48,661 nt of DNA. Source: an uncultured Fidelibacterota bacterium (GTDB lineage Bacteria; Fidelibacterota; Marinisomatia; Marinisomatales; UBA1611). Shown here piece by piece: positions 34,420 to 48,661 of the stretch. The notes beneath the pieces were generated by a model, which did no database searches, was not told the DNA's origin, and saw only the letters and a list, made by a program, of their open reading frames with translations. Location: assembly GCA_902611135.1 (NCBI GenBank), contig CACLYL010000005.1, positions 1 to 48,661 of the forward strand, in the 5' to 3' direction. Numbering within the stretch: the first letter of the stretch is position 1; the number at the start of each line of letters is the position of its first letter. The position numbers and the translations under genes were made by a program.

Positions 34420-34575
34420 TTTTAGTATTATTTAATTACCTAAAATTAATAAAACAGCAACTACATACCCAAAGCATTATTTTGTTATAACACCAACTGT
34501 TTTTTTAAACAATAAAGCTAGTGTAATTAAACAAAAAAGTAGTAATTTTTATAATATAGTGTATGTTGATAACTT
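34420..34575. other. Predicted replication origin region (oriC) between rpmH and dnaA
   Basis: About 155 AT-rich bases with no ORF, placed exactly where gene direction switches from minus to plus. Two DnaA-box sequences lie at its right end, in the same orientation: TGTTGATAA (34564-34572, one mismatch) and TGTGGATAA (34575-34583, perfect). The region must also hold divergent promoters for rpmH and dnaA. The origin role is inferred from gene order, strand switch and boxes. Confidence 0.78.
34564..34572 (-). promoter_or_regulatory. DnaA box, one mismatch
   Basis: TGTTGATAA on the plus strand, read as TTATCAACA on the minus strand; the consensus is TTATCCACA. It is three bases from the perfect box. 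Confidence 0.65.
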
Positions 34576-34583
34576 GTGGATAA
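34575..34583 (-). promoter_or_regulatory. Perfect DnaA box overlapping the dnaA start codon
   Basis: TGTGGATAA is the exact complement of the consensus TTATCCACA. The GTG start of dnaA lies inside it, so DnaA bound here could block its own translation start region or transcription, which would be direct autoregulation. Confidence 0.8.
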
Positions 34584-35934: not shown

Positions 35935-38148
35935 TTGATTTTACTTGATTTTAGATCTTTTAGAACTTTAATTGTGTCAAAAATTCTACCGTTCTTGGCT
36001 TTTGGAATCTTGTTTTCACAAGTAGAAGAAATAGGTGACAGTTCTTTTACGATAAACCAAAACTCAGTGCTTATTTCAATACCTTATTATAGCAATGAAC
36101 ATCAAATAAGTTATAACGAACAGGTTAGCAGAATAGTTCTTATCGTTCATGGACAAAACAGGAATGCAAATGATTATTATTCGTATCTTTTCAATATATC
36201 AACTAATTTAAACCTTGATGAAAACACATTAGTTTTAGCTCCACAATTTCTTCTGAGCCAAGACATATCGTCTTTAAACTTAGGTAGTGAATATGCTTAT
36301 TGGTCTGGAACTTCTCAATGGACGGGTGGGTATTTATCATCTTCAACAGAACAAAACCCTAGACCAGAGGTTGTTAGTTCTTTCGAGATTATGGACTCTT
36401 TAATCCAGCTTTTAGATTACTCATATACTAGTGTGAATGAAATTGTTCTGGCTGGTTATTCTGCGGGGGGTCAATTTGTCAACCGTTATGCATCAGGCTC
36501 GTCAATTACAGCAGGTGGTAAAGTGAAATATGTAGTAGCAGCCCCATCGCACTATTTATATTTTAATGATGAAAGGTCTCAAAACAACTTTGAAATACCC
36601 ATTACATGGGATCAAGAAACGGAATGTGTAGGTTATAATCACTATAGATATGGTCTTGAAAATTTAAATAATTACATGGGTCAGATCAACATTGATACCA
36701 TTCGCTATCGATATAGTTCTAAAAGCATTAATTATCTAATTGGGAATGAAGATAATGGAGGAACATCATATTGTGAATCAACTGTGCAAGGAGAAGGGCG
36801 CTACCAAAGAGCTCTAGTGTACTATAATCACCTTATTTCTCAATTCGGCGAAAATGTTATTGAAAATCACAAAATAGCAATTATCGATAATGTATCGCAT
36901 GATGCTGCACAAGCTTTTGGCTCAGAGTGCGGCGTGTTTTCTGTTTTTGGATTAGCCAGTTGTGAGCAAATGTCAAACTTAACATTCCCAGTTACCAACT
37001 TTACATTATATAATAATGAAGGAGGTTACCCCCTTGAAGTTAGCTTTGTAAACGGGTCTGTACAGGGAACACATGAAATTACCCAAAACCAATGGAATTT
37101 TGGTGACGGGACGCTAATTAACAGTAATAATATAATTGAGAGTTATATCTATTCACGCCCTGGGGAATTTGATGTTTCTCTTGTCTCTTACGATATATTG
37201 GGTTTAAGTGACTCCTTAAGACAACAAAATATAATAAAAGTAGACACTCTTTTTGGAGACTTTGATTTTAATGCAAACATAAATCAAAATGATGCCAATC
37301 TAATACTAGAAAGCATCGTTAATTTAAGCTTTGCGGATCCGCTTCAATTAAAAGTTGGCGATGTGAACAAAAATGAAGTGCTTTCTACTTATGATGCTTC
37401 ACTAATATTACAATACCATCAAGATGTAATTGATACTTTGCCCTACACCCTAGAGCCACTTCTTGGAGAAGGACAAATCTTTTCAGAGTCGCAAGTTGTT
37501 AATCAAAACGACATTATTACTCTGCCTATTGTATTTGATAATATGGAAAACATTAAATCTTTTTCTTTTCGAGTTCAATATAACGAAGTGTTTTTAGATT
37601 ATGGCTCTTTTTACGCACCAGGTCTAAATGACTTAGGGTTTTTAATTAAAACCAATAATCAAGGATCGACAATTTTAATAGCTGCTGCCAGCGCACATGA
37701 CATTCCTCATTCGGATGAAAGTATAAATCTGTATTTTACTCGAACAGACAGTGCTTTTCTTGAAACAAATATTCTAATAGACAATATTATCTTAAACGAT
37801 GAAATAACATCGCATGTTCTTAACGTATTTTTATATGATGGGCTATCAAACACTACCGTAATACAACCAAAAAATGTTTCAATTTCACAAAACTATCCAA
37901 ACCCTTTTAATCCAAGAACAAGCATAGATTATCACACAAAAAAAGGCTGTTTGGTTTCAGCTGACATATATGATGTTAAAGGTGCCCTGGTGAGGATGCT
38001 TTTTTCAGAATTCAAAGTTAAAGGAAGCCACACGGTTTCTTGGGATGGAAAGAATTATAAAGGAAACAACGCCTCAAGTGGTATTTATTATTTCAGGGTT
38101 AAAGTAGACAACTATGTGGAATCGAAAAAGATGCTTTTAATTAGATAA
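35935..38148 (+). CDS. Secreted multidomain alpha/beta hydrolase with PKD, dockerin-like and Por-type sorting domains
   Basis: A 737-residue exported protein. The catalytic part (about 20-340) is an alpha/beta hydrolase like PHB depolymerases and esterases: IVLIVHGQNRNANDYY, nucleophile Ser176 in GYSAGGQ, and a likely catalytic His in IDNVSHDAA. A PKD domain follows (about 351-436, WNFGDGT). Then comes a dockerin-type pair of calcium loops (GDFDFNANINQNDANL and GDVNKNEVLSTYDASL, about 440-500). A cohesin-like strand region is next (about 510-640). The end is a sorting domain with QNYPNPFNPRTS and SSGIYYFRV. Start TTG 35935 gives a long signal peptide; GTG 35974 (MSKILPFLAFGILFSQ) is an equally good choice. 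The substrate is not evident; an ester bond is likely. Confidence 0.85.
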   Translation: MILLDFRSFRTLIVSKILPFLAFGILFSQVEEIGDSSFTINQNSVLISIPYYSNEHQISYNEQVSRIVLIVHGQNRNANDYYSYLFNISTNLNLDENTLVLAPQFLLSQDISSLNLGSEYAYWSGTSQWTGGYLSSSTEQNPRPEVVSSFEIMDSLIQLLDYSYTSVNEIVLAGYSAGGQFVNRYASGSSITAGGKVKYVVAAPSHYLYFNDERSQNNFEIPITWDQETECVGYNHYRYGLENLNNYMGQINIDTIRYRYSSKSINYLIGNEDNGGTSYCESTVQGEGRYQRALVYYNHLISQFGENVIENHKIAIIDNVSHDAAQAFGSECGVFSVFGLASCEQMSNLTFPVTNFTLYNNEGGYPLEVSFVNGSVQGTHEITQNQWNFGDGTLINSNNIIESYIYSRPGEFDVSLVSYDILGLSDSLRQQNIIKVDTLFGDFDFNANINQNDANLILESIVNLSFADPLQLKVGDVNKNEVLSTYDASLILQYHQDVIDTLPYTLEPLLGEGQIFSESQVVNQNDIITLPIVFDNMENIKSFSFRVQYNEVFLDYGSFYAPGLNDLGFLIKTNNQGSTILIAAASAHDIPHSDESINLYFTRTDSAFLETNILIDNIILNDEITSHVLNVFLYDGLSNTTVIQPKNVSISQNYPNPFNPRTSIDYHTKKGCLVSADIYDVKGALVRMLFSEFKVKGSHTVSWDGKNYKGNNASSGIYYFRVKVDNYVESKKMLLIR

Positions 38149-38256
38149 ACAGAGCCATTTATTTGAAAAGGAGCTAAATAAAATCTAGTGTTTTTTGATT
38201 GCAAAACAAAAGTATTAATATATGGCACATAATTTCGACGTAATATGAGGTTTTTT

Positions 38257-40746
38257 ATGAAAAAGTTTTTTGTTTTTCTGTTTTGCTTTTCTAGCGTAAA
38301 GTCACAGGTTGTAGATCTTTTCATTAGTGATTGGTATATAGGCTGGAGAGGAGACGGTGTATATAATAACCTTGTTGAGCTGTATAACCCTAAAGAGGAC
38401 ACGATAAACCTTACTGATTATCTGTTTAGAAGAACTCAAAATGGATCTGACTGGCTTTCTTCAGACCCAGATCATATGATTAGAATGTCTGGAATTATTC
38501 CACCAGGAGGGACATTCGCTATTACACGCGCTGCCGCTAATGAAGCGCTTGTTAATTGTGCCAATCAAACAACGAGTGGCGGAGATGCTGCGGGATATGT
38601 AGACCCCGATGCATTTTTAAAACAGAACGGAAATGATGCGTTTGGTGTCTTTTATATAGGGGGACTAGGAGATGACACCACAGCATGGATAGAAAACGGA
38701 GTTTTGTTAGATGCTTTGGGAAACATTAACGATGACTCTTATTGGGACGTTTCAGGCACCTCTGAAGCAACAAGGTACCATATTCTTCAAAGAAAATTTA
38801 ATATATGTGGTGGAAACTCAGGAAACTGGGATGCTTCGAGAGGGTGTATAGATGATGATTGTACAGAAACGTCTTATTCTTTAAGTGAATGGGAGGTGAT
38901 TAATTGTGCGCTTGCTGACCCAAATGGTTCAAATTATCCGGAACCTGAATCTCAGGATGCAACACAAGATATGGAGGTTGTTTGTGGGGGCCACCAGTAT
39001 TTATGTTTGGATGCGCCAAACAGCCCACCTGGAGAATTTGCTTTAGAAAGTCCAGTTACAAATTCTAATCTCTTTATAGATGATACAAATCTTTCTGAAA
39101 TTCTTAATGTTTCATGGTTTGAATCTTATGATTCAGATGGGCATGATCTGATCTATACATTTGACTTATATAATTCTGCAGGAGATACTGTTTTCAGTAC
39201 GAGCGTTACAAATGATATAACCTTAGAAATTCCCTTTGAAGCTATATATAATTTGATAGGCGCTGATAATTCGCTACTCTGTTATTGGGATGTTTCAGTT
39301 ACTGATTTATATGATACAACAGCTTCCTCAAATGGTCCTTTGCTGTTACAAATTTCAACGCAACAAGGTGGAGGGCTTGACCAACCACCAACAGAATTTA
39401 ATCTGAATTATCCATCAGATTATACTTTGTTTTATTTAAATACAGACAATTCCAATGAGGACATTTTGATCAATTGGCAAGAATCTGTTGATCCAGATGG
39501 AAACGATATAAGTTATTATTATCAGGTTAGCGAATATCCTGATATGAGTGACCCCATTGGCGGTCTTTGGGAATCAGAGACAAACTCAATTTTAGCATCA
39601 CTTCAATCAACATATGATTACCTAATAAGTATTAACTTAAATGAATCCACTCTCTATTGGGATGTAGTAGCAAGCGATGGTGTTTTTGAACAAGTTTCAA
39701 GTAACGGACCCTTCATGTTTTATGCTTACATAGGGGAAAATCCTGTAAACAATGAAGATACCTATATAGACCTTTTTATTAGTGATTGGTATATTGGATA
39801 CAGGAGTAGCCCAACCTATAATGCCGCACTTGAGCTATATAACCCAAAAGATGAGCCTGTTGACTTATCTAATTACATTTTAAGAAGAACTCAAAATGGA
39901 AGTCATTGGATGGAAAGCAGTTGGATTAGATTAGACGGTGTATTGCCCCCGAATTCAACCTATGTTGTAACAAGGCAAGCATCAGATGAATCTATTCAAA
40001 ATTGTTCCGACTTTATTGAGCCTGATGAGTTTTTGAAACACAATGGCGATGATGGAATTAAAATTACACATATCGGCTATCTTCCGGATGTTTTTCAAAA
40101 CGATACGACTGCATGGATGAAAATGAGCATAACGCTCGATGCAATAGGTTATGCTGGCGAAGATCCCGGAAGTGCGTGGGATGTTAGTGGTGTTAATGAG
40201 GCAACACGCTATTATATGCTAACGAGAAAGATGGACGTTTGTGGTGGAAACGGTGGAGACTGGAATGATTCAAGGGGTTGTGTTAATGAAGCATGCGATT
40301 CTACAAATTTTGATCTTGGAGAGTGGACTCCAATCCAATGTGGTTTAAGCCCTTCCGCGGGTGATATGCCTGAGGGGGCAGATGCTTCTGCAGATGTAGC
40401 AATTTTTTGCGGAAATCATAATTACTTTTGTTCTTCAGCTGCTGTTTCTTCAGACGGTATAGTGCCAAGTAAAGTTGAGTTGTATCAAAACTTTCCAAAC
40501 CCATTTAACCCCTCTACAGAGATTATATATGACATATCTCAAAGTAACGAAATAGAACTTGTAATTTTTAATTTACTTGGAAAAGAAGTTAAGCAGTTAG
40601 TTAGTAAAAAGGTAGAGCCTGGTAAGTATAAAGTTGTTTGGAACGGGAAAGATAATTTAGGAAATGAAGTTTCATCCGGGGTTTATTTTTACAGGTTGAA
40701 GACTGAGCAGGTACTGAAACAAAAAAAGCTGATTCTACTAAGATAA
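38257..40746 (+). CDS. Secreted protein with two lamin-tail (LTD) domains and a Por-type sorting domain
   Basis: An 829-residue secreted protein built by internal duplication. Two lamin-tail-like domains (about 18-250 and 503-727) share LFISDWYIG, ELYNPK, RRTQNGS and a Cys-bearing CGGN.G.W..SRGC segment. Between them lie two Fn3/Ig-like domains (about 258-493, each with DSDGHDL or DPDGNDI turns). The C-terminus carries QNFPNPFNPSTE and SSGVYFYRL, a sorting domain for outer-membrane export. I chose ATG 38257, which has GAGG six bases upstream and gives the signal peptide MKKFFVFLFCFSSVKS; ATG 38245 is an in-frame alternative. No catalytic site is seen, so it may bind or scaffold substrate beside the hydrolases. 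Confidence 0.85.
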   Translation: MKKFFVFLFCFSSVKSQVVDLFISDWYIGWRGDGVYNNLVELYNPKEDTINLTDYLFRRTQNGSDWLSSDPDHMIRMSGIIPPGGTFAITRAAANEALVNCANQTTSGGDAAGYVDPDAFLKQNGNDAFGVFYIGGLGDDTTAWIENGVLLDALGNINDDSYWDVSGTSEATRYHILQRKFNICGGNSGNWDASRGCIDDDCTETSYSLSEWEVINCALADPNGSNYPEPESQDATQDMEVVCGGHQYLCLDAPNSPPGEFALESPVTNSNLFIDDTNLSEILNVSWFESYDSDGHDLIYTFDLYNSAGDTVFSTSVTNDITLEIPFEAIYNLIGADNSLLCYWDVSVTDLYDTTASSNGPLLLQISTQQGGGLDQPPTEFNLNYPSDYTLFYLNTDNSNEDILINWQESVDPDGNDISYYYQVSEYPDMSDPIGGLWESETNSILASLQSTYDYLISINLNESTLYWDVVASDGVFEQVSSNGPFMFYAYIGENPVNNEDTYIDLFISDWYIGYRSSPTYNAALELYNPKDEPVDLSNYILRRTQNGSHWMESSWIRLDGVLPPNSTYVVTRQASDESIQNCSDFIEPDEFLKHNGDDGIKITHIGYLPDVFQNDTTAWMKMSITLDAIGYAGEDPGSAWDVSGVNEATRYYMLTRKMDVCGGNGGDWNDSRGCVNEACDSTNFDLGEWTPIQCGLSPSAGDMPEGADASADVAIFCGNHNYFCSSAAVSSDGIVPSKVELYQNFPNPFNPSTEIIYDISQSNEIELVIFNLLGKEVKQLVSKKVEPGKYKVVWNGKDNLGNEVSSGVYFYRLKTEQVLKQKKLILLR

Positions 40747-40775
40747 ATTTCCCAAAGAAACATATAATAGCTTAG

Positions 40776-41786
40776 ATGAAAAAAATGTTCTGGTGTCTCA
40801 CCGTACTTTTAGTTTCTAGTTGCGAGGAGGCGGAAGTTACAGATGTATATAATGAAGAACCAATAACCGCTGAGTACCCATGTGTGTCTGATGCTTTAAG
40901 CTGTTTAGATTCTATAAATATTGAAGGGGGATCGGTTAACTTCTATTCTTCTTTTAGCCTAGACTCTTTAAACCTTGTATCTGGTGCAATAATAGTTGTC
41001 CATGGAGCAACTCGAAATGGAGATGATTACTTCAATAGAATGATATCAACTATTAAGAGTGTAGGATTAGAAGATAGCATTATGGTTATTGCTCCTCAGT
41101 TCATAACTGAATATGAAAAAGTTCATGGTAAGGACTGGTATTGGAATACAACATCGTGGAAGTGGGGAAATCAATCATATATGAACGGTAGTCAAATCAG
41201 CATAAGTTCTTTTGAGGTAATAGATCACTTGTTATCCAGGGTAGCAAACACAGATAAGTTCCCAAATCTTTCAAAAGTATTAATAACGGGTCACTCTTCA
41301 GGTTCTGCTTTTACACACACCTTTTCCTCCACAAAAACAAGCAATGCTTTTGGGGATTTAAGAGTAGACTTTGCAGTTGTTAACAACCAATATTTTTTAT
41401 ATCCTGATTCGAATCGCTTTTTAAATGGTGCTCTCTTCACTCCAAATGATTGCGACAGCTATAATGATTGGCCACTTGGATTGACACATCCAAACCCGTA
41501 CATAGAAAGTTTAGGAAAAAATCTTGCAAGCGATAATTTAATTAGCAATAGAATAGATTATTTTATAGGGTCAAATGATACCCAAATTAACGACATGTCT
41601 TCAGGATGTGCATATGAAATTCTTGGGGAGCATCGCCTTCAAAAAACAATTAACTTCAATGACTATTTAGACATATCATTTGAAAATAATCTACATCAAT
41701 ATACAATCCTTCAAGGAATTGGACACAGTAGCACTGGAATGTTTTCTTCAAATGAATTTAAAAGTTATATAAATGAATTATTTTAA
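40776..41786 (+). CDS. Alpha/beta hydrolase lipoprotein (PHB depolymerase/esterase-like)
   Basis: A 336-residue lipoprotein with a lipobox at Cys16 (VLLVSSC). The hydrolase core resembles the secreted enzyme at 35935: AIIVVHGATRNGDDYFNRM, nucleophile Ser174 in GHSSG, and a probable catalytic His in LQGIGHSS near the end. The domain appears complete and of normal length. The end overlaps the SusC-like gene by 14 bases. It likely sits on the outer membrane and cleaves ester-linked products before uptake. The exact substrate is not readable. Confidence 0.83.
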   Translation: MKKMFWCLTVLLVSSCEEAEVTDVYNEEPITAEYPCVSDALSCLDSINIEGGSVNFYSSFSLDSLNLVSGAIIVVHGATRNGDDYFNRMISTIKSVGLEDSIMVIAPQFITEYEKVHGKDWYWNTTSWKWGNQSYMNGSQISISSFEVIDHLLSRVANTDKFPNLSKVLITGHSSGSAFTHTFSSTKTSNAFGDLRVDFAVVNNQYFLYPDSNRFLNGALFTPNDCDSYNDWPLGLTHPNPYIESLGKNLASDNLISNRIDYFIGSNDTQINDMSSGCAYEILGEHRLQKTINFNDYLDISFENNLHQYTILQGIGHSSTGMFSSNEFKSYINELF

Positions 41787-44700
41787 CTTTAAACAGTTTT
41801 TAGAAAAATTACTAATAATGCTCTTGTTGATTCAAGGCGCTTATTCATCTCTTATATTATCAGGAAAAGTTTTAGATAAAAAAGGAAATCCCCTTCCAGG
41901 GGCAAATGTCATAATTGTAAACAGTAATCTCGGTACAGCAAGCGGAATTGATGGCTTTTACCAATTAGAGGTTTTTGATGTTGTTATTTTAAACAAACCA
42001 ATAAAACTAAAAGCATCTTATATAGGACATAAAAGCGAGATAAAAAATTACATACATAATAAAACCATAAATAAGGTGAATGGGTTTGACTTTAATTTAG
42101 CAACAGATGTTATGAATCTGGAGGCAATAGTCGTTACAGGTCTTGGCGTTGAACAAGAAACAAAAAAGCTTGGTGTTTCCATTGAATCTGTTAGCAAAGA
42201 AAGAGTTGAGGATTCTCCAGAGGTAAGCTTGGTATCTGCACTTCGGGGCAATGTTTCTGGTTTAGAAGTGAGAAAAACAAGTGGCGACGCTGGAACGAAT
42301 GCATTCTTTCGAATTAGAGGAACCGGCACTATATCCGGAGGACATGAGCCCCTTGTTGTGGTTGATGGAAGCCCCATAAGCACAAGAACGCTTGATTCAG
42401 GAGGAAGAGAGACGAGTGAAAGAGGGCATCCTGAATCCTCTAGTAGGTTGGCTGATGTAAACATGAACGACATTGAGTCTATCGAGGTTCTAAAAGGAGC
42501 AGCTGCTTCAGCAATATATGGATCAAGAGCTTCAAATGGTGTTATTTTAATTACTACGAAATCTGGAACGACAGGGAAAACAAAAATCACATATAAATCA
42601 AATTATGGCATCAGTGGTATGAATAGAATATATCCTCTTCAACAAAAGTTTGGTCAAGGGGATGCAGGCGACTTTGAAGCTGGAAGATCTTACTCTTGGG
42701 GAAAGGCCCTTAATGTAAAGCAAGCAAAATGGTTTGATCCAAACGTAGAAGAGGATGTGGTATATGATCATGTTGAAGATATATCAGAAATTGGAAATAA
42801 CTTTGAACAGTCGATTTCTGCTTACGGTGGCAACGATAGAACGACTTTTTACTTTTCAATGTCTCAAAATTATGAGAGAGCACACTGGCAAACATTTAAT
42901 CAATATAAGCAAACGGTTACTTCTGTCTTTGGGCATGAACCAACCCGAACAGTTCCTTCTGATTTTACGCGTCAAACGTTTCGCCTAAAAGGAAGTCATT
43001 ATTTGACAAAAAAAGTAAGCTTAACAGGAAGCATGTCATATGTTAATGTATTTGGAAACCAAGTCATTAGAGCTCACAGCACGGATGGCTTAGCTAAAGG
43101 ACTGTTAAGCACGCCACCAGACTTTAATCTGAGGCCATACTTAGATCCCAACACCCAGTTCCATAGAACCTCAACGGACCCCTATCCAGAGACAAGAGAT
43201 GGTGATCACAGGTGGAATAATCCTTTTTGGGTGCTATATGAGCTGTCCCAAACCCAATCTGTAGAAAGGGTGTACGGGAACATAAAACTTAGATACGATA
43301 TTAATAATTGGATTGATCTCAATTATGTTTTAGGAACAGATTTTTCGCTCGATGAGAGAAATGATATTATGCCATCAGGCACTTATAGAAACGGTGGAAT
43401 CGGCAGATATATTCACGAAGATATATTAGACCACGAGTGGGACTCAAATCTAAATTTCAACTTTAACATAAAAGAGAGGTTTAATCTTCCCATCCAACTT
43501 GTAATGGGTCATAATTTAAACAGCAGGGCCTTGAGTCGATTTGAAACAACGGGGGAAGATCAGGTGTTGCCTTATTACTACCAAATTGAAAATTATTCAT
43601 CAGTAACTGCAGATCAGTATTTATCCTTGATACATCTCGAATCATACTTTGTCCAAGGGACAATGGACCTGTTTGACCAATTATACTTTACGAGTGCACT
43701 CAGAAATGACGGTTCTTCAACTTTTGGACCAGCAGACAGAAGACATAACTTTTTTAAATTTAGCACCGCGTGGGAGTTTTCAAAGTTGTATAAACCGTCG
43801 CTGCTCAGCTTTGGTAAGCTGAGACTTGCTTATGGACAAGCAGGTGAAGAGCCCAGAGCCTACAGTATTTTCTCAGGATATACATCTCCATCTTTATTTT
43901 CTGTAGGAGAAAAAGTTTCTCTAGGCCTGACGTACAACGGGGTTACTGGATATCGATCAGATGATGAGGTTAGCAACTTTAGAATTAGGCCAGAAAGACG
44001 AAATGAATATGAAGTTGGTACAGATATTTCTCTTTTTGATGGAATGCTTGGTTTAAATGCAACGTTGTACAATGCGATAAGCAATGATATTATTTATGAT
44101 GTTGACGTGATCCCTTCAACCGGAGCTGATGAAATGACAGCGAATGGGGCTTCAATCCAAAATAAAGGCTTAGAGTTTAATATCAATTACAAAGTTGTTG
44201 ATAAAAACAACTTTAAATGGAATTCAAAATTTATATATGCAGCTAATAAAAACACTGTCTTAGAAATGAATGGCATCACGGGAGAGATGGCTAAAACTAT
44301 GAATCCTAGTCTTGTGCCAAGTAGAGGCATAGCAAAGTTTAGTGAAGTTTCACCGGGTCATGAATATGCAGAATTTAAGGTCTTAAGTTGGGCGCGATTC
44401 GGTCATGGTCTTGTAGTTGACCATGATCTTGACATTAATACTCCTGATGTAAATATTGATAGTCTTTCAAATTATGAATGGGAAAAAAATGATGTTTATA
44501 TTGCCAAAAACGGTCTTCCAATCATGTACTCTGAAAAGATATGGTCTGGGTACGCGCCAAACCCTGATTGGACCGGAAGTTTTTATAATGAATGGAACAT
44601 TGGTAAAAAATTTCAAGTGTCGTTCTTGTTAGATATCAGTATGGGAGGTCATATTGCAAATTATACAAAAAATGCGCTTTACGAATGGGGAACACATGGC

Positions 44701-45159
44701 GATACTGATAAAAGGTATCATCCTGACTTTGATAATCCAGAGTGGTTTGGTTATGAAGAGGGCGTTAGTACTGAGTGGGGTAAAGGTACTTTTGAAAAAT
44801 TAATTAATCATGGACATAGAGCTTTAGGTCCAGGAAAAGATACGATTATTACTTATTCTCAAAACATGTATGAAAATTATATGGGAAGGAATACAGACGT
44901 TATCAACAACATAGAAGACGCAAGCTATATGAAATTAAGAGAAATAGCAATTTCATATACTCTAGGCCGATCAAACCTCCAGTTTTTAGGGGAACCATTG
45001 TTATCCTTTAGGTTAAGCGCTCAGGATTTAATTAATTGGACAAATTATTCAGGTTGGGATCCTGAAACCAACATGTACCAAGATAGAATATCAGGTGAAG
45101 ATTATTTTAATCAACCTCAAACGTGGAGAATTAATTTTGGAGTACAATTAGAATGGTAA
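41773..45159 (+). CDS. SusC/RagA-family TonB-dependent outer-membrane transporter
   Basis: An 1128-residue barrel with a signal peptide (to about residue 25), a carboxypeptidase-D regulatory-like domain (SGKVLDKKGNPLPGANVII, about 28-110), a plug domain (VVTGLGVEQETKKLG, then ALRGNVSGLEVRKTSGD, SIEVLKGAAASAIYGSRASNG) and a long barrel ending in WRINFGVQLEW with the usual aromatic last residue. It imports large oligomers in partnership with SusD, using TonB energy. It overlaps the upstream lipoprotein hydrolase by 14 bases and the SusD-like gene by seven, so the set is one operon. The regulator (sigma/anti-sigma) seen beside many such pairs is not in the window. Confidence 0.96.
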   Translation: MNYFNFKQFLEKLLIMLLLIQGAYSSLILSGKVLDKKGNPLPGANVIIVNSNLGTASGIDGFYQLEVFDVVILNKPIKLKASYIGHKSEIKNYIHNKTINKVNGFDFNLATDVMNLEAIVVTGLGVEQETKKLGVSIESVSKERVEDSPEVSLVSALRGNVSGLEVRKTSGDAGTNAFFRIRGTGTISGGHEPLVVVDGSPISTRTLDSGGRETSERGHPESSSRLADVNMNDIESIEVLKGAAASAIYGSRASNGVILITTKSGTTGKTKITYKSNYGISGMNRIYPLQQKFGQGDAGDFEAGRSYSWGKALNVKQAKWFDPNVEEDVVYDHVEDISEIGNNFEQSISAYGGNDRTTFYFSMSQNYERAHWQTFNQYKQTVTSVFGHEPTRTVPSDFTRQTFRLKGSHYLTKKVSLTGSMSYVNVFGNQVIRAHSTDGLAKGLLSTPPDFNLRPYLDPNTQFHRTSTDPYPETRDGDHRWNNPFWVLYELSQTQSVERVYGNIKLRYDINNWIDLNYVLGTDFSLDERNDIMPSGTYRNGGIGRYIHEDILDHEWDSNLNFNFNIKERFNLPIQLVMGHNLNSRALSRFETTGEDQVLPYYYQIENYSSVTADQYLSLIHLESYFVQGTMDLFDQLYFTSALRNDGSSTFGPADRRHNFFKFSTAWEFSKLYKPSLLSFGKLRLAYGQAGEEPRAYSIFSGYTSPSLFSVGEKVSLGLTYNGVTGYRSDDEVSNFRIRPERRNEYEVGTDISLFDGMLGLNATLYNAISNDIIYDVDVIPSTGADEMTANGASIQNKGLEFNINYKVVDKNNFKWNSKFIYAANKNTVLEMNGITGEMAKTMNPSLVPSRGIAKFSEVSPGHEYAEFKVLSWARFGHGLVVDHDLDINTPDVNIDSLSNYEWEKNDVYIAKNGLPIMYSEKIWSGYAPNPDWTGSFYNEWNIGKKFQVSFLLDISMGGHIANYTKNALYEWGTHGDTDKRYHPDFDNPEWFGYEEGVSTEWGKGTFEKLINHGHRALGPGKDTIITYSQNMYENYMGRNTDVINNIEDASYMKLREIAISYTLGRSNLQFLGEPLLSFRLSAQDLINWTNYSGWDPETNMYQDRISGEDYFNQPQTWRINFGVQLEW

Positions 45160-46571
45160 AATATATAAAGACTGCAATTGTTTTTCTGAGTATGTCCTTC
45201 TTTAGTTGTGAAAACTTTTTAACAGGGCCTCTTTTAGATCAAAATCCAAATGAGGTTGACGATGTTACGGTGGTTTCGCCAGAAGCTTTGTTGGTTGGTA
45301 CTCAAGTTACAATGTATGGAGTGATGGAAGGATATTTAAATCGAGCAGTTTCTATGGTCATGCAGCAAATGTCAGGCCTTCAAACAGACTATTATAGAGA
45401 TTATAATTGCGAGCCAATAGATGTAAACACTAATGGTAGATGGACAGCAATGTACGGAACCGGTGGTTTAATCGATATGAACACAACCCAAGAAGTTGCT
45501 CAAAGACAAGAGAGGCATGTCTTGCTTGGTATTTCACAAATGTGGGAGGCTCTCGTTTTTTCAACGGCAGCTGATATTTGGGGTGATGTTCCTTATTCTC
45601 AGGCGGCCAACGCAGAGTTTGCCCAGCCTAAGTTTGATTCTCAAAAAGAAGTACATGAAGCAATGTTAAGCCTTATTGATGATGCAATTATAAACTTTGA
45701 TAAGGGACAAGTTTTCACGCTGCCGTCCGACTTTGATTTTACATTCAGCTCTGATATTGAAAAATGGAAAAGAGCAGCATATACATTAAAGAGTAGAATT
45801 TTACTCAACTGGGCTGAAGTTGAAAGTGATAATTACTCACTAGCATTAGAAGCGGCGCAAGAAGGGATAGTAGATGAATCAGGAGATGGGGATTGGAAGG
45901 CTTTGCACGGTGCTGCGATTTCTGAGAGGAATGTCTGGTTTCAATTCTTTTTATCGAACCCTGACTATATGGGTGCGGGGAAATTGCTTGTTGATATGCT
46001 TAAAAGAGAAAATGATGATAGACTAGGTATTTATTTCCTTCAAAGCGGAGCAAATGAAATAACAGGAGTAAGTCCTGGAGATTCAATTTTAAATGCTTCA
46101 ATGCTTAATGTTGTTGGCCATTTTGGAATGTCATGGAAACCTGAGTTTGTTAGTTGGTATGAAAACAAATTCATAATGGCAGAATGTTATTATAATCTTG
46201 GAAATGAAGAGGCTGCCTTGCAAGTATTAAATCAGACACTTTCTGGATTAGAGCAAAAATGGATTTCAACCGGTTATAATGACATAACGATTCCCCGATA
46301 TGAAGATGTTTCAGGAGCAATACTTTTAGAAGCGATTATGAACGAAAAATACAAAGCGCTATTTTTAAATATTCAATCATGGAGTGACTGGCGCAGAACA
46401 GGGTATCCGAGGTTTCTTGATTCTGAAGGAAATTCAACAGAGTGCGGTTTGCAAAATTCGGGAGTTGGTGTTCCAAGGCGATTATTATATCCTGAAAAAG
46501 AAAAAACGACAAATCCAAATTGTCCACAAGGCGATAACATCTATGATCGGGTAGAAAATGACCCCTACTAA
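45153..46571 (+). CDS. SusD/RagB-family substrate-binding lipoprotein
   Basis: A 472-residue lipoprotein (Cys19 in SFFSCENF) that caps the SusC barrel and binds substrate. SusD-type helical TPR features include the N-terminal NFLTGPLLDQNPNEVDDVTVVSP, the middle ADIWGDVPYSQAANAEFAQPKFDSQKEV and a C-terminal EKYKALFLNIQSWSDWRRTGYPRF followed by RRLLYPEKE. A GGAG sequence lies about nine bases before the ATG, inside the SusC end. Its end overlaps the next hydrolase by 14 bases. Confidence 0.95.
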   Translation: MVKYIKTAIVFLSMSFFSCENFLTGPLLDQNPNEVDDVTVVSPEALLVGTQVTMYGVMEGYLNRAVSMVMQQMSGLQTDYYRDYNCEPIDVNTNGRWTAMYGTGGLIDMNTTQEVAQRQERHVLLGISQMWEALVFSTAADIWGDVPYSQAANAEFAQPKFDSQKEVHEAMLSLIDDAIINFDKGQVFTLPSDFDFTFSSDIEKWKRAAYTLKSRILLNWAEVESDNYSLALEAAQEGIVDESGDGDWKALHGAAISERNVWFQFFLSNPDYMGAGKLLVDMLKRENDDRLGIYFLQSGANEITGVSPGDSILNASMLNVVGHFGMSWKPEFVSWYENKFIMAECYYNLGNEEAALQVLNQTLSGLEQKWISTGYNDITIPRYEDVSGAILLEAIMNEKYKALFLNIQSWSDWRRTGYPRFLDSEGNSTECGLQNSGVGVPRRLLYPEKEKTTNPNCPQGDNIYDRVENDPY

Positions 46572-47430
46572 AGTAGCGTTAGTTTTTCTTTTCATACTTA
46601 AACTCAGCTTAATAGCACAAGAATATATAGAACAAGTGACGCCCCCATGGGGATATATCTTTAAAGGGTGGAAAGGGCCGCCTATAGATGTTATAAACTA
46701 CTTTCCTGCAAGCGCCACAAAGAGTTCACCTATTTTAATTGTAATACCTGGAGCATCAAGAGACGCGCAAAGATTTCATGCTTCCTGGTTAGACTTAGCA
46801 AAAAAGAAAAGTTTCATAGTTTTAACTATAGGTGCAAGAAAAAAATATTTTCCTGATGAATATTCATATAATGCTGGTCGGTTAATAACAAGCCAAGGAC
46901 ACGCAATGGATAAAAGTCAATGGCTTTTCAGTGCAATTGAACCCCTTTTTGAAGACTTTAAAAAAAGATATAAGCTCAACACACAAAAGTTTTATTTATT
47001 TGGGCACTCCGCTGGAGGAGGTTTTGTACACCGATATCTCCTTTTTAAGCCAAAAGCGCCGGTTGAAAAAGCGGTTGCTGCAAACCCCGCATTTGTAACA
47101 GTTCCAGACTTTGATATACAATATCCTTTTGGTTTAAAAAACACACCATTAAAAAAGAGAGATATAAAACCTTGGTTCAAGCACAACCTTGCAATTGTTC
47201 TTGGTGAAAATGATTTAGGTCCAAGAACAAAACCGTTAAGCAATGGTGCTATGGCGAATGTTCAGGGCTCTAATTGTTTTGAGCGCGGACAGCTCTTATT
47301 CAGCGCTGCTGAGCAGGCATCAAAAAAAGCAAGGACAAAATTTAATTGGAAATTAATTACTGTTCCAAGTGTAGGACACAATAACTTTGAAATAGCGCCT
47401 GTCGCCGCTAACTATTTATTTGGTAATTAG
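46558..47430 (+). CDS. Exported alpha/beta hydrolase (PHB depolymerase/esterase-like), third paralogue
   Basis: A 290-residue hydrolase with an N-terminal signal peptide (VALVFLFILKLSLIAQ). The core has PILIVIPGASRDAQRFHASW, nucleophile Ser151 in GHSAGGG, and a likely catalytic His in VPSVGHNNFE. It has no lipobox and no sorting domain, so it is probably soluble in the periplasm, where it could finish products brought in by SusC/SusD. It is coupled to the SusD-like gene by a 14-base overlap. Relationship to the hydrolases at 35935 and 40776 is by shared motif order only. Confidence 0.85.
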   Translation: MTPTKVALVFLFILKLSLIAQEYIEQVTPPWGYIFKGWKGPPIDVINYFPASATKSSPILIVIPGASRDAQRFHASWLDLAKKKSFIVLTIGARKKYFPDEYSYNAGRLITSQGHAMDKSQWLFSAIEPLFEDFKKRYKLNTQKFYLFGHSAGGGFVHRYLLFKPKAPVEKAVAANPAFVTVPDFDIQYPFGLKNTPLKKRDIKPWFKHNLAIVLGENDLGPRTKPLSNGAMANVQGSNCFERGQLLFSAAEQASKKARTKFNWKLITVPSVGHNNFEIAPVAANYLFGN

Positions 47431-47434
47431 ATAA

Positions 47435-48661
47435 GTGATTTTAAAACAAAGAATTGGATTTATTTTCGGCATAGGGTTGTTTTGTCTTTGTGTCTTTTCG
47501 ACCCCTCCAGAGAATATGAATCCACTGGCTATGAAAGCAGCCGGGGTTTCTTTGTTAATGGCTGTTTTTTGGATTACAGAAGCTATTTCAATTTTTGCAA
47601 CAGCATTTATCCCTGTTGCTCTATTTCCTATACTAGGTGTTTTAGATGCAAAGCAAATTGCAGCAAGTTATGGTCACCACATTGTTATTTTAATTATTGG
47701 TGCTTTTTTTGTTGCTAAAGCAATAGAAACAAACCAGCTACATAAAAGAATCGCTCTCTTTACTATTCGAATCATTGGAACTAGTAGAAAAAGAGTTATG
47801 CTGGGCTTTATGATTGCAACAGGGTTTTTGTCAATGTGGACTTCAAATAATTCAACAACATTAATGATGCTACCAATAGGTCTTGCAATACTAGACAGAG
47901 AAGATAAAGCGGGCTCAGACATCTCTAAATTTGCTCCAGGATTAATGTTGTGCATCGCTTATTCGGCAAGTATAGGAGGGGTAGGCACGCTAGTTGGGAC
48001 GCCTCCAAATTTGGTTTTTTCTAGCACCTTAAAAGAGCTTTTCCCCCATTCTCCTGATATCTTGTTTGCAGATTGGTTAAAAATTGGAATCCCTTTTGTT
48101 CTTTTGTTTTTGCCTATTTCCTGGATTTACCTTGTCAGGTACTTTCACGTTCAAGGAGAACTTAGTGGCTCATCCGATATCATTGACAATGAATATAAAG
48201 CTCTTGGTAAAATGACAATTGCAGAGAAAAGAGTTTTCACTGTTATTATTTTATATGCACTGGGTTTTGTATTTAGAGGGGTTTGGTCCGATTATTTGGG
48301 CGTTAAGGGCTTTGCTAAAGATTCAACTGTAGCTATTTTAGCAGCGCTATTGCTTTTTTCAATTTCTAGCGGGAAGACGAATCAAAAAGGAAATTCGATT
48401 AAATTATTAGAATGGGAAGATGCAAAAACGGTTCCATGGGGGATTGCAATGTTAATAGGAGGCGGACTTGCAATAGCTTCTTCATTTCAGACCTCTGGAT
48501 TAATATCTTGGATAGGAGAAAACATAAACATTGATGGAGTGCCCATCTTTGTTATCGTGCTGTTGGTTGTCTTTTTAATGGTCTTTTTAACAGAAATAAA
48601 TTCAAATACAGCAACCACTGCTGTCTTTTTACCTGTCTTGGCAGGACTTTCAAAGGGAGCA
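47435..48661 (+). CDS. DASS/SLC13-family sodium-dependent carboxylate transporter, cut by window edge
   Basis: A membrane protein open to the window end (409 codons seen). GTG at 47435 is the first start after the stop of the upstream gene and gives MILKQRIGFIFGIGLFCLCVFSTPPENMN, followed by many hydrophobic helices. Both half-repeat signature loops are present: SNNSTTLMM (about 128-136) and, later, SNTATTAVFLP. There is also TLVGTPPNLVFSS, a DASS/ArsB-type hairpin motif. The family imports dicarboxylates, citrate, sulfate or related anions with Na+. The position after the SusCD-hydrolase genes suggests uptake of acids they release, but the anion is not known. Confidence 0.87.
   Translation, partial: MILKQRIGFIFGIGLFCLCVFSTPPENMNPLAMKAAGVSLLMAVFWITEAISIFATAFIPVALFPILGVLDAKQIAASYGHHIVILIIGAFFVAKAIETNQLHKRIALFTIRIIGTSRKRVMLGFMIATGFLSMWTSNNSTTLMMLPIGLAILDREDKAGSDISKFAPGLMLCIAYSASIGGVGTLVGTPPNLVFSSTLKELFPHSPDILFADWLKIGIPFVLLFLPISWIYLVRYFHVQGELSGSSDIIDNEYKALGKMTIAEKRVFTVIILYALGFVFRGVWSDYLGVKGFAKDSTVAILAALLLFSISSGKTNQKGNSIKLLEWEDAKTVPWGIAMLIGGGLAIASSFQTSGLISWIGENINIDGVPIFVIVLLVVFLMVFLTEINSNTATTAVFLPVLAGLSKGA

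Follow-up and report, generated by a model that had tools for sequence, protein, structure and literature searches.

The described systems with which we compared the locus reported here are the polysaccharide utilisation loci (PULs) of Bacteroidota, the hydrolase PahZ1, the short-chain-length PHA depolymerases together with LpqC, and the polymalate hydrolases of Physarum and Comamonas. PahZ1 cleaves β-linked poly(Asp) (PMC4456602), and SusD homologues that bind synthetic polymers have been reported (PMC11267923). The Physarum and Comamonas enzymes carry out a reaction like the one proposed below and are reported to be non-serine esterases (PMC9210645); no bacterial gene for hydrolases of this type was found in the literature searched. 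A search of the open literature turned up neither a SusCD nor a TonB locus for polymalate or polyaspartate, and nothing that ties polymalate to TonB, SusD or Alteromonas loci. Our locus shares with Bacteroidota PULs a SusC/SusD pair, predicted surface and periplasmic hydrolases and coupled genes, but it has no carbohydrate-active enzyme, and instead carries hydrolases of the PahZ1 superfamily, a carboxylate carrier and two T9SS-tailed proteins in a Fidelibacterota host. The hydrolases resemble short-chain-length PHA depolymerases and LpqC in fold and lipase box, yet they score far under the family cut-offs and have other genomic partners. They differ from PahZ1 in that one of them, H3, falls in a separate clade and in that three enzymes are found within one SusCD locus.

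The DNA analysed (the window, 48,661 nucleotides) is contig C5 of a 1.36-Mb MAG, 58% complete, from Fidelibacterota (Neomarinimicrobiota/SAR406). The relatives that carry a name belong to Candidatus Neomarinimicrobiota/Marinimicrobia (Fidelibacterota) and are for the most part MAGs and single-cell genomes from the sea. Seven genes follow dnaA on the + strand at 35935-48661, in the positions first assigned to them:

35935..38148, + strand: H1, secreted PahZ1/PHB-depolymerase-like α/β hydrolase domain, PKD, dockerin-like repeat and T9SS sorting tail
38245..40746, + strand: LTD protein, T9SS-tailed and bearing two Lamin Tail Domains, PF00932 (1.8e-19) in two stretches, TIGR04183 at 37.6 bits
40776..41786, + strand: H2, lipoprotein-like paralogue of H1 with an LLVSSC lipobox
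41773..45159, + strand: SusC, TonB-dependent outer-membrane transporter, TIGR04056 at 490.7 bits
45153..46571, + strand: SusD lipoprotein (SusD-like_2), PF12771 (8e-48)
46558..47430, + strand: H3, signal-peptide PahZ1-like hydrolase, presumed periplasmic
47218..47244, + strand: H3 signature loop GPRTKPLSN (aa 221-229), common to the Alteromonadaceae homologues and different in PahZ1
47435..48661, + strand: DASS (SLC13) sodium-coupled carboxylate carrier, TIGR00785 at 219 bits, gene cut by the contig end

The H2/SusC, SusC/SusD and SusD/H3 pairs overlap, H3 is separated from DASS by 4 bp, and the spacers between H1 and the LTD protein and between the LTD protein and H2 are about 97 and 30 bp, as would be expected for a coupled operon. 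H1 probably begins at GTG 35974 and not at TTG 35935. SusC scored above the TIGR04056 cut-off of 368 bits, and DASS scored above the curated TIGR00785 cut-off of 198.6 bits despite its truncation at 48661; the solved structures nearest to the carrier are NaCT/NaDC. The earlier note had described a SusCD locus of coupled genes with hydrolases on both sides and a DASS carrier, and the gene positions, the overlaps and the domain scores all agree with that description, to which the LTD protein is an addition. As in other SusCD utilisation loci, SusC stands beside SusD and substrate-cutting enzymes (three triad-bearing hydrolases) are co-encoded; the glycoside hydrolase or polysaccharide lyase of the polysaccharide type is missing. 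Searches with glycoside hydrolase, polysaccharide lyase and sulfatase models matched nothing in the window locus, in keeping with the note's statement that no such enzyme is visible, and the annotated loci of relatives contained no glycosidase, lyase or sulfatase, so that the linkage of a relative's SusCD to glycosidases, which the note had named as evidence against its reading, was not seen there. The window locus likewise contained no amino-acid gene and no iron-related gene. A promoter scan of the window gave matches about as frequently as shuffled sequence did.

The three hydrolases had been called esterase-like, and each retains an intact catalytic triad (S176/D273/H322 in H1, S174/D268/H317 in H2 and S151/D219/H274 in H3). 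Searches of the PDB with H3 returned PahZ1 (6ve6, 2.5e-49; 9o7u, 2.8e-41) and LpqC (1.7e-32). H1, the hydrolase domain of which spans about aa 45-345, and H2 are paralogues with 25% identity, and neither matched a Pfam hydrolase model. Profile-profile alignment to H3 over the catalytic region gave 99.2% for H1 and 98.3% for H2. The H1 profile found PahZ1 in the PDB at 7e-8; the H2 profile found no match there, and a fold search was used instead. AlphaFold predicted the H1 domain and H2 with low confidence (mean pLDDT 59 and 56, respectively), yet PDB fold searches with these models placed PahZ1 and LpqC at the top, with ferric enterobactin and siderophore esterases among the lower-ranked matches of both models. 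Based on their mutual similarity, the profile-profile match to H3 and the fold, we conclude that H1 and H2 are α/β hydrolases. All three enzymes are closest to PahZ1/LpqC and not to cutinases or feruloyl esterases, and the kinship with the latter that had been considered was not borne out by structure prediction and fold search. The proposal of a PHB depolymerase fared no better: the PHB depolymerase model NF050058 (e-dPHAscl type 1; cut-off 150) gave 30.7 bits with H3, 19.8 bits with H2 and no match with H1, and the scores in the PHB-depolymerase families were 30.7 and 20.8 bits against cut-offs of 150 and 107.85. A better match to peptidases, which would have counted against the earlier reading, was found only in part, in that the nearest solved enzyme of H3 cuts the amide bonds of poly(aspartate). 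H1-H3 share with PahZ1 sequence or fold similarity and the Ser-Asp-His triad; H3 does not group with characterised PahZ1 in the tree described below.

H2 carries a lipobox, and hydrophobic signal sequences could be read in H1 and H3. The T9SS sorting domain TIGR04183 (cut-off 23 bits) was matched by H1 at 30.2 bits as well as by the LTD protein, which is possibly a surface binding or scaffold protein. The dockerin-like repeat of H1 is weak. SprA (TIGR04189) exceeded its cut-off in 11 of 13 genomes, and in this 58% complete MAG the match was weak; TIGR04189 was used in place of the Pfam model SprA_N, which matched nowhere, controls included.

We next consider the kinship of H3. A collection-wide search for its relatives returned 80 loci. 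In a maximum-likelihood tree the window H3 grouped with Alteromonadaceae enzymes (98/89; 100/99 together with one planctomycete), apart from both solved PahZ1 enzymes and from the second Fidelibacterota family described below. H3 resembles PahZ1 (6ve6, 9o7u) in its α/β-hydrolase fold, its triad and the invariant residues G65, R68, H158, Q236-G237 and R243, but differs in having P64 for H, G155 for Q, A178 for G, an RTK loop at 223-225, and at position 179 F for W (T in 9o7u). Positions 155 and 178 hold G and A in all 19 clade members and Q and G in all 57 other sequences; P64, G155, A178, F179, R223-T224-K225 and N229 are among the clade residues that are absent or rare in the 57 others. One MAG titled Flavobacteriales (L036) has an H3 nearly identical to those of the Fidelibacterota TMED46 and AG-404-J18, and is probably mislabelled.

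The question raised earlier of whether the set stays together in other genomes can be answered positively. The locus is kept with small losses in seven further genomes of the window's family, and such retention argues that the gene arrangement is not due to chance. An H1-type gene, the LTD protein, SusC, SusD and H3 are present in all seven; H2 is lost from two (L019, L021) and DASS from one (L018). A model based on H2, run against 101 genomes, matched the 8 locus-bearing genomes of family f1 and one other. A full-length H2 homologue (28%) was observed in another family (L126, 9177-10220), where it has no recognised SusCD neighbours and adjoins a T9SS-tailed protein of 870 aa. Just downstream of the locus in several relatives (L018, 5065-10959; L020, 2295-8507; L021, 14209-19899) lies a T9SS-tailed protein of about 1,900-2,070 aa, the L018 copy of which matched no other Pfam domain. 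The genes upstream of the locus vary by genus, with a sigma factor and others outside the window's genus, and dnaA is found near the locus only in that genus (G000; in G001 two genes intervene). The sign of the GC skew changes near 33 kb, beside dnaA, and one perfect DnaA box lies at the dnaA start (34575-34583); a scan of the window for DnaA boxes showed no excess over chance. The data support a replication origin near 33 kb in this genome. The origin-adjacent position remarked on earlier therefore stands for this genome, but dnaA adjacency is a property of this genus only and not a general one.

The gene neighbourhoods of H3 relatives point to C4 acids. Nine Alteromonadaceae loci contain, in order, a kinase, a response regulator, a TonB receptor, an H3 homologue and DASS, followed in seven of them by an adjacent NAD-malic enzyme. 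The sensor domain of the kinase matches DctB structures (3by9, 9.5e-37; 2zbb, 7.9e-30), and in all six genomes tested this linked enzyme comes in addition to another NAD-type malic enzyme; the two tested genomes that lack the linkage have a single copy. These loci have in common with the window the H3 clade, an adjacent DASS carrier (36-39% identical to that of the window) and an outer-membrane TonB receptor; unlike the window, they have a single TonB-dependent transporter without SusD, one hydrolase, and the regulator pair and malic enzyme. In the window's clade, DASS touches or overlaps H3 (gap ≤7 bp) at 17 of the 18 loci found in the database; as relatives have only about 2-7 DASS homologues per genome, such adjacency is not due to chance. 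Throughout the family, a C4-dicarboxylate carrier (DASS, DctA or DcuC) lies within 8 kb in 41 of 74 loci, and thus three unrelated kinds of such carrier recur near PahZ1-like genes.

Other combinations were seen outside the clade. Brevundimonas loci contain a PahZ1-like gene, a TonB receptor, aspartate ammonia-lyase, DctA and an ECF sigma factor; in L052 (5313-14346), where the sigma factor is part of a FecR/ECF pair, the gene set is likely a polyaspartate locus. Salinicola/Vreelandella loci (L071, 6995-12347; L099) join a PahZ1-like gene to a DcuC carrier, a fumarase/ADSL-superfamily lyase and an OprD porin. In sphingomonad loci the PahZ1-like gene is accompanied by DctA, an esterase, a TonB receptor and an M14 peptidase; the M14 partner was considered as PahZ2 and rejected, as it matched only general M14 peptidases and no named PahZ2. 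A second Fidelibacterota family (L025, 1209-19143; L026-L030) has SusCD, a sortilin/BNR protein, DASS, an FGase-like gene and an H3 homologue together with DgcN- and DgcA-like genes, γ-glutamyltranspeptidase (GGT), a PLP decarboxylase and a BhcB-like dehydratase, and this set suggests a locus for acidic peptides or polymers that contain D-amino acids. A D-glutamate/γ-PGA reading, suggested by DUF1611 (DgcN), DgcA and GGT in family f8, was rejected for the window because DUF1611 occurs in 59 of 101 relatives generally and is absent from the window locus, and because the f8 H3 homologues fall in another clade.

The order and domains of the genes, the triads, the conservation of the locus, the relationships of H3 and the linkage to C4-acid genes in relatives are taken directly from sequence, and from them we infer the cell locations, the substrate and every activity in the following scheme. 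H1, exported by the T9SS, and the surface lipoprotein H2 would cut the polymer outside the cell, where the LTD protein may bind or act as a scaffold; SusD and SusC, whose families are evident from their sequences, would bind the oligomers and import them across the outer membrane. H3 would then break the oligomers down to monomers in the periplasm, and the carrier, a DASS member by sequence, would move malate into the cell with sodium. The order of events put forward earlier, with cutting outside, import of oligomers, completion in the periplasm and uptake of the released acids, is thereby supported and narrowed to a C4 dicarboxylate. The released monomer is very likely a C4 dicarboxylate, best malate, given the DASS carrier, the DctB-type sensor and extra malic enzyme of the sister clade, and the DctA or DcuC genes, some with aspartase, that adjoin other PahZ1-like genes; that the sister clade joins malic enzyme and DctB-type sensing to DASS speaks for malate. 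We regard a C4-dicarboxylate polymer of some kind as a probable substrate, and polymalate in particular as one whose chances fall just short of even. The statement as a whole, that this is a SusCD locus for a water-soluble C4-dicarboxylic polyanion with β-poly(L-malate), a polyester that occurs in nature, as first choice, we hold to be slightly better than an even bet. By our own reasoning, β-polymalate is the ester isostere of β-polyaspartate. Against polymalate, the characterised relatives of H3 cut amides, and the single purified bacterial polymalate hydrolase described (Comamonas) was reported not to be a serine esterase (PMC9210645). Malic enzyme was found neither in the window's own genome nor in the 8 locus-bearing f1 genomes, several of which are incomplete, and its absence weakens a direct malate-to-pyruvate route in the locus-bearing Fidelibacterota; malate would instead have to be used by way of malate dehydrogenase and the TCA cycle. 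DASS carriers also transport succinate, fumarate or citrate, and the identity of the window's DASS to those of Alteromonadaceae is no higher than 36-39%. The abundance of polymalate in seawater was not established in the literature searched.

If the substrate were polyaspartate or another β/γ-linked acidic poly-amino-acid, H1-H3 would be isopeptide (amide) hydrolases and DASS would import aspartate or a C4 acid. The nearest solved enzymes are indeed poly(Asp) hydrolases, the Brevundimonas loci join a PahZ1-like gene and a TonB-dependent transporter to aspartate ammonia-lyase and DctA, the sphingomonad loci add an M14 carboxypeptidase, and the second Fidelibacterota family joins an H3 homologue, SusCD and DASS to DgcN/DgcA-like and GGT genes. 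However, the window H3 belongs to a clade other than that of PahZ1 and those loci and has another active-site signature, its clade is accompanied by malic enzyme and not by aspartase or a peptidase, and the window locus lacks an amino-acid gene; we therefore consider a poly-amino-acid unlikely. The hydrolases could also act on a glycan or on dissolved organic matter by removing ester-linked dicarboxyl groups (succinyl, malyl), with SusCD importing the glycan. Glycosidase, lyase and sulfatase are absent from the window and its annotated conserved relatives, and the presence of three family members at a single SusCD speaks for cutting of a backbone, which makes this explanation quite improbable even though SusCD normally serves glycans and the DASS carrier would suit free succinate or malate.

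It is very unlikely that the locus serves a hydrophobic polyester, for example PHB or a different PHA, cutin or a man-made polyester. The similarity to PHB-depolymerase families is weak, with scores far under the cut-offs; LpqC, which carries the annotation of a PHB depolymerase, ranks with the best fold matches, but the linked transporters serve C4 dicarboxylates and not 3-hydroxybutyrate, and the substrate of PahZ1, the nearest relative that has been characterised, is a soluble polyanion. Of the polyester or ester-polymer locus postulated earlier, a non-glycan SusCD system for an ester-type (or isopeptide) polymer finds support, whereas the PHB and aryl-ester versions do not. Scavenging of an ester or peptide siderophore, or of another small molecule, through a TonB receptor and siderophore-esterase-like hydrolases would account for the lower-ranked fold matches to ferric enterobactin and siderophore esterases; we give it hardly any weight, as an iron-related gene is absent, the receptor is a genuine SusC paired with SusD, and neither the DASS carrier nor three secreted or surface enzymes fit such a role.

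SusCD is read almost by reflex as a sugar importer, and here it points to a charged C4-acid polymer. The window locus gives a concrete, assayable substrate candidate, and the idea is directly testable since cultured Alteromonas species have the sister locus, which includes a malic enzyme of its own. If the proposal is true, these would be genes for the environmental breakdown of polymalate (or polyaspartate), markers with which to trace that polymer in ocean metagenomes, and an enzyme set for biodegradable polyanions. More tentatively, at somewhat under even odds, we suggest that polymalate scavenging spans several phyla, with SusCD in Fidelibacterota, TonB receptor, DASS and malic enzyme in Alteromonadaceae, and a new clade of PahZ1-like serine esterases; in that case polymalate, or a close C4 polyester, would be a regular part of marine dissolved organic matter.
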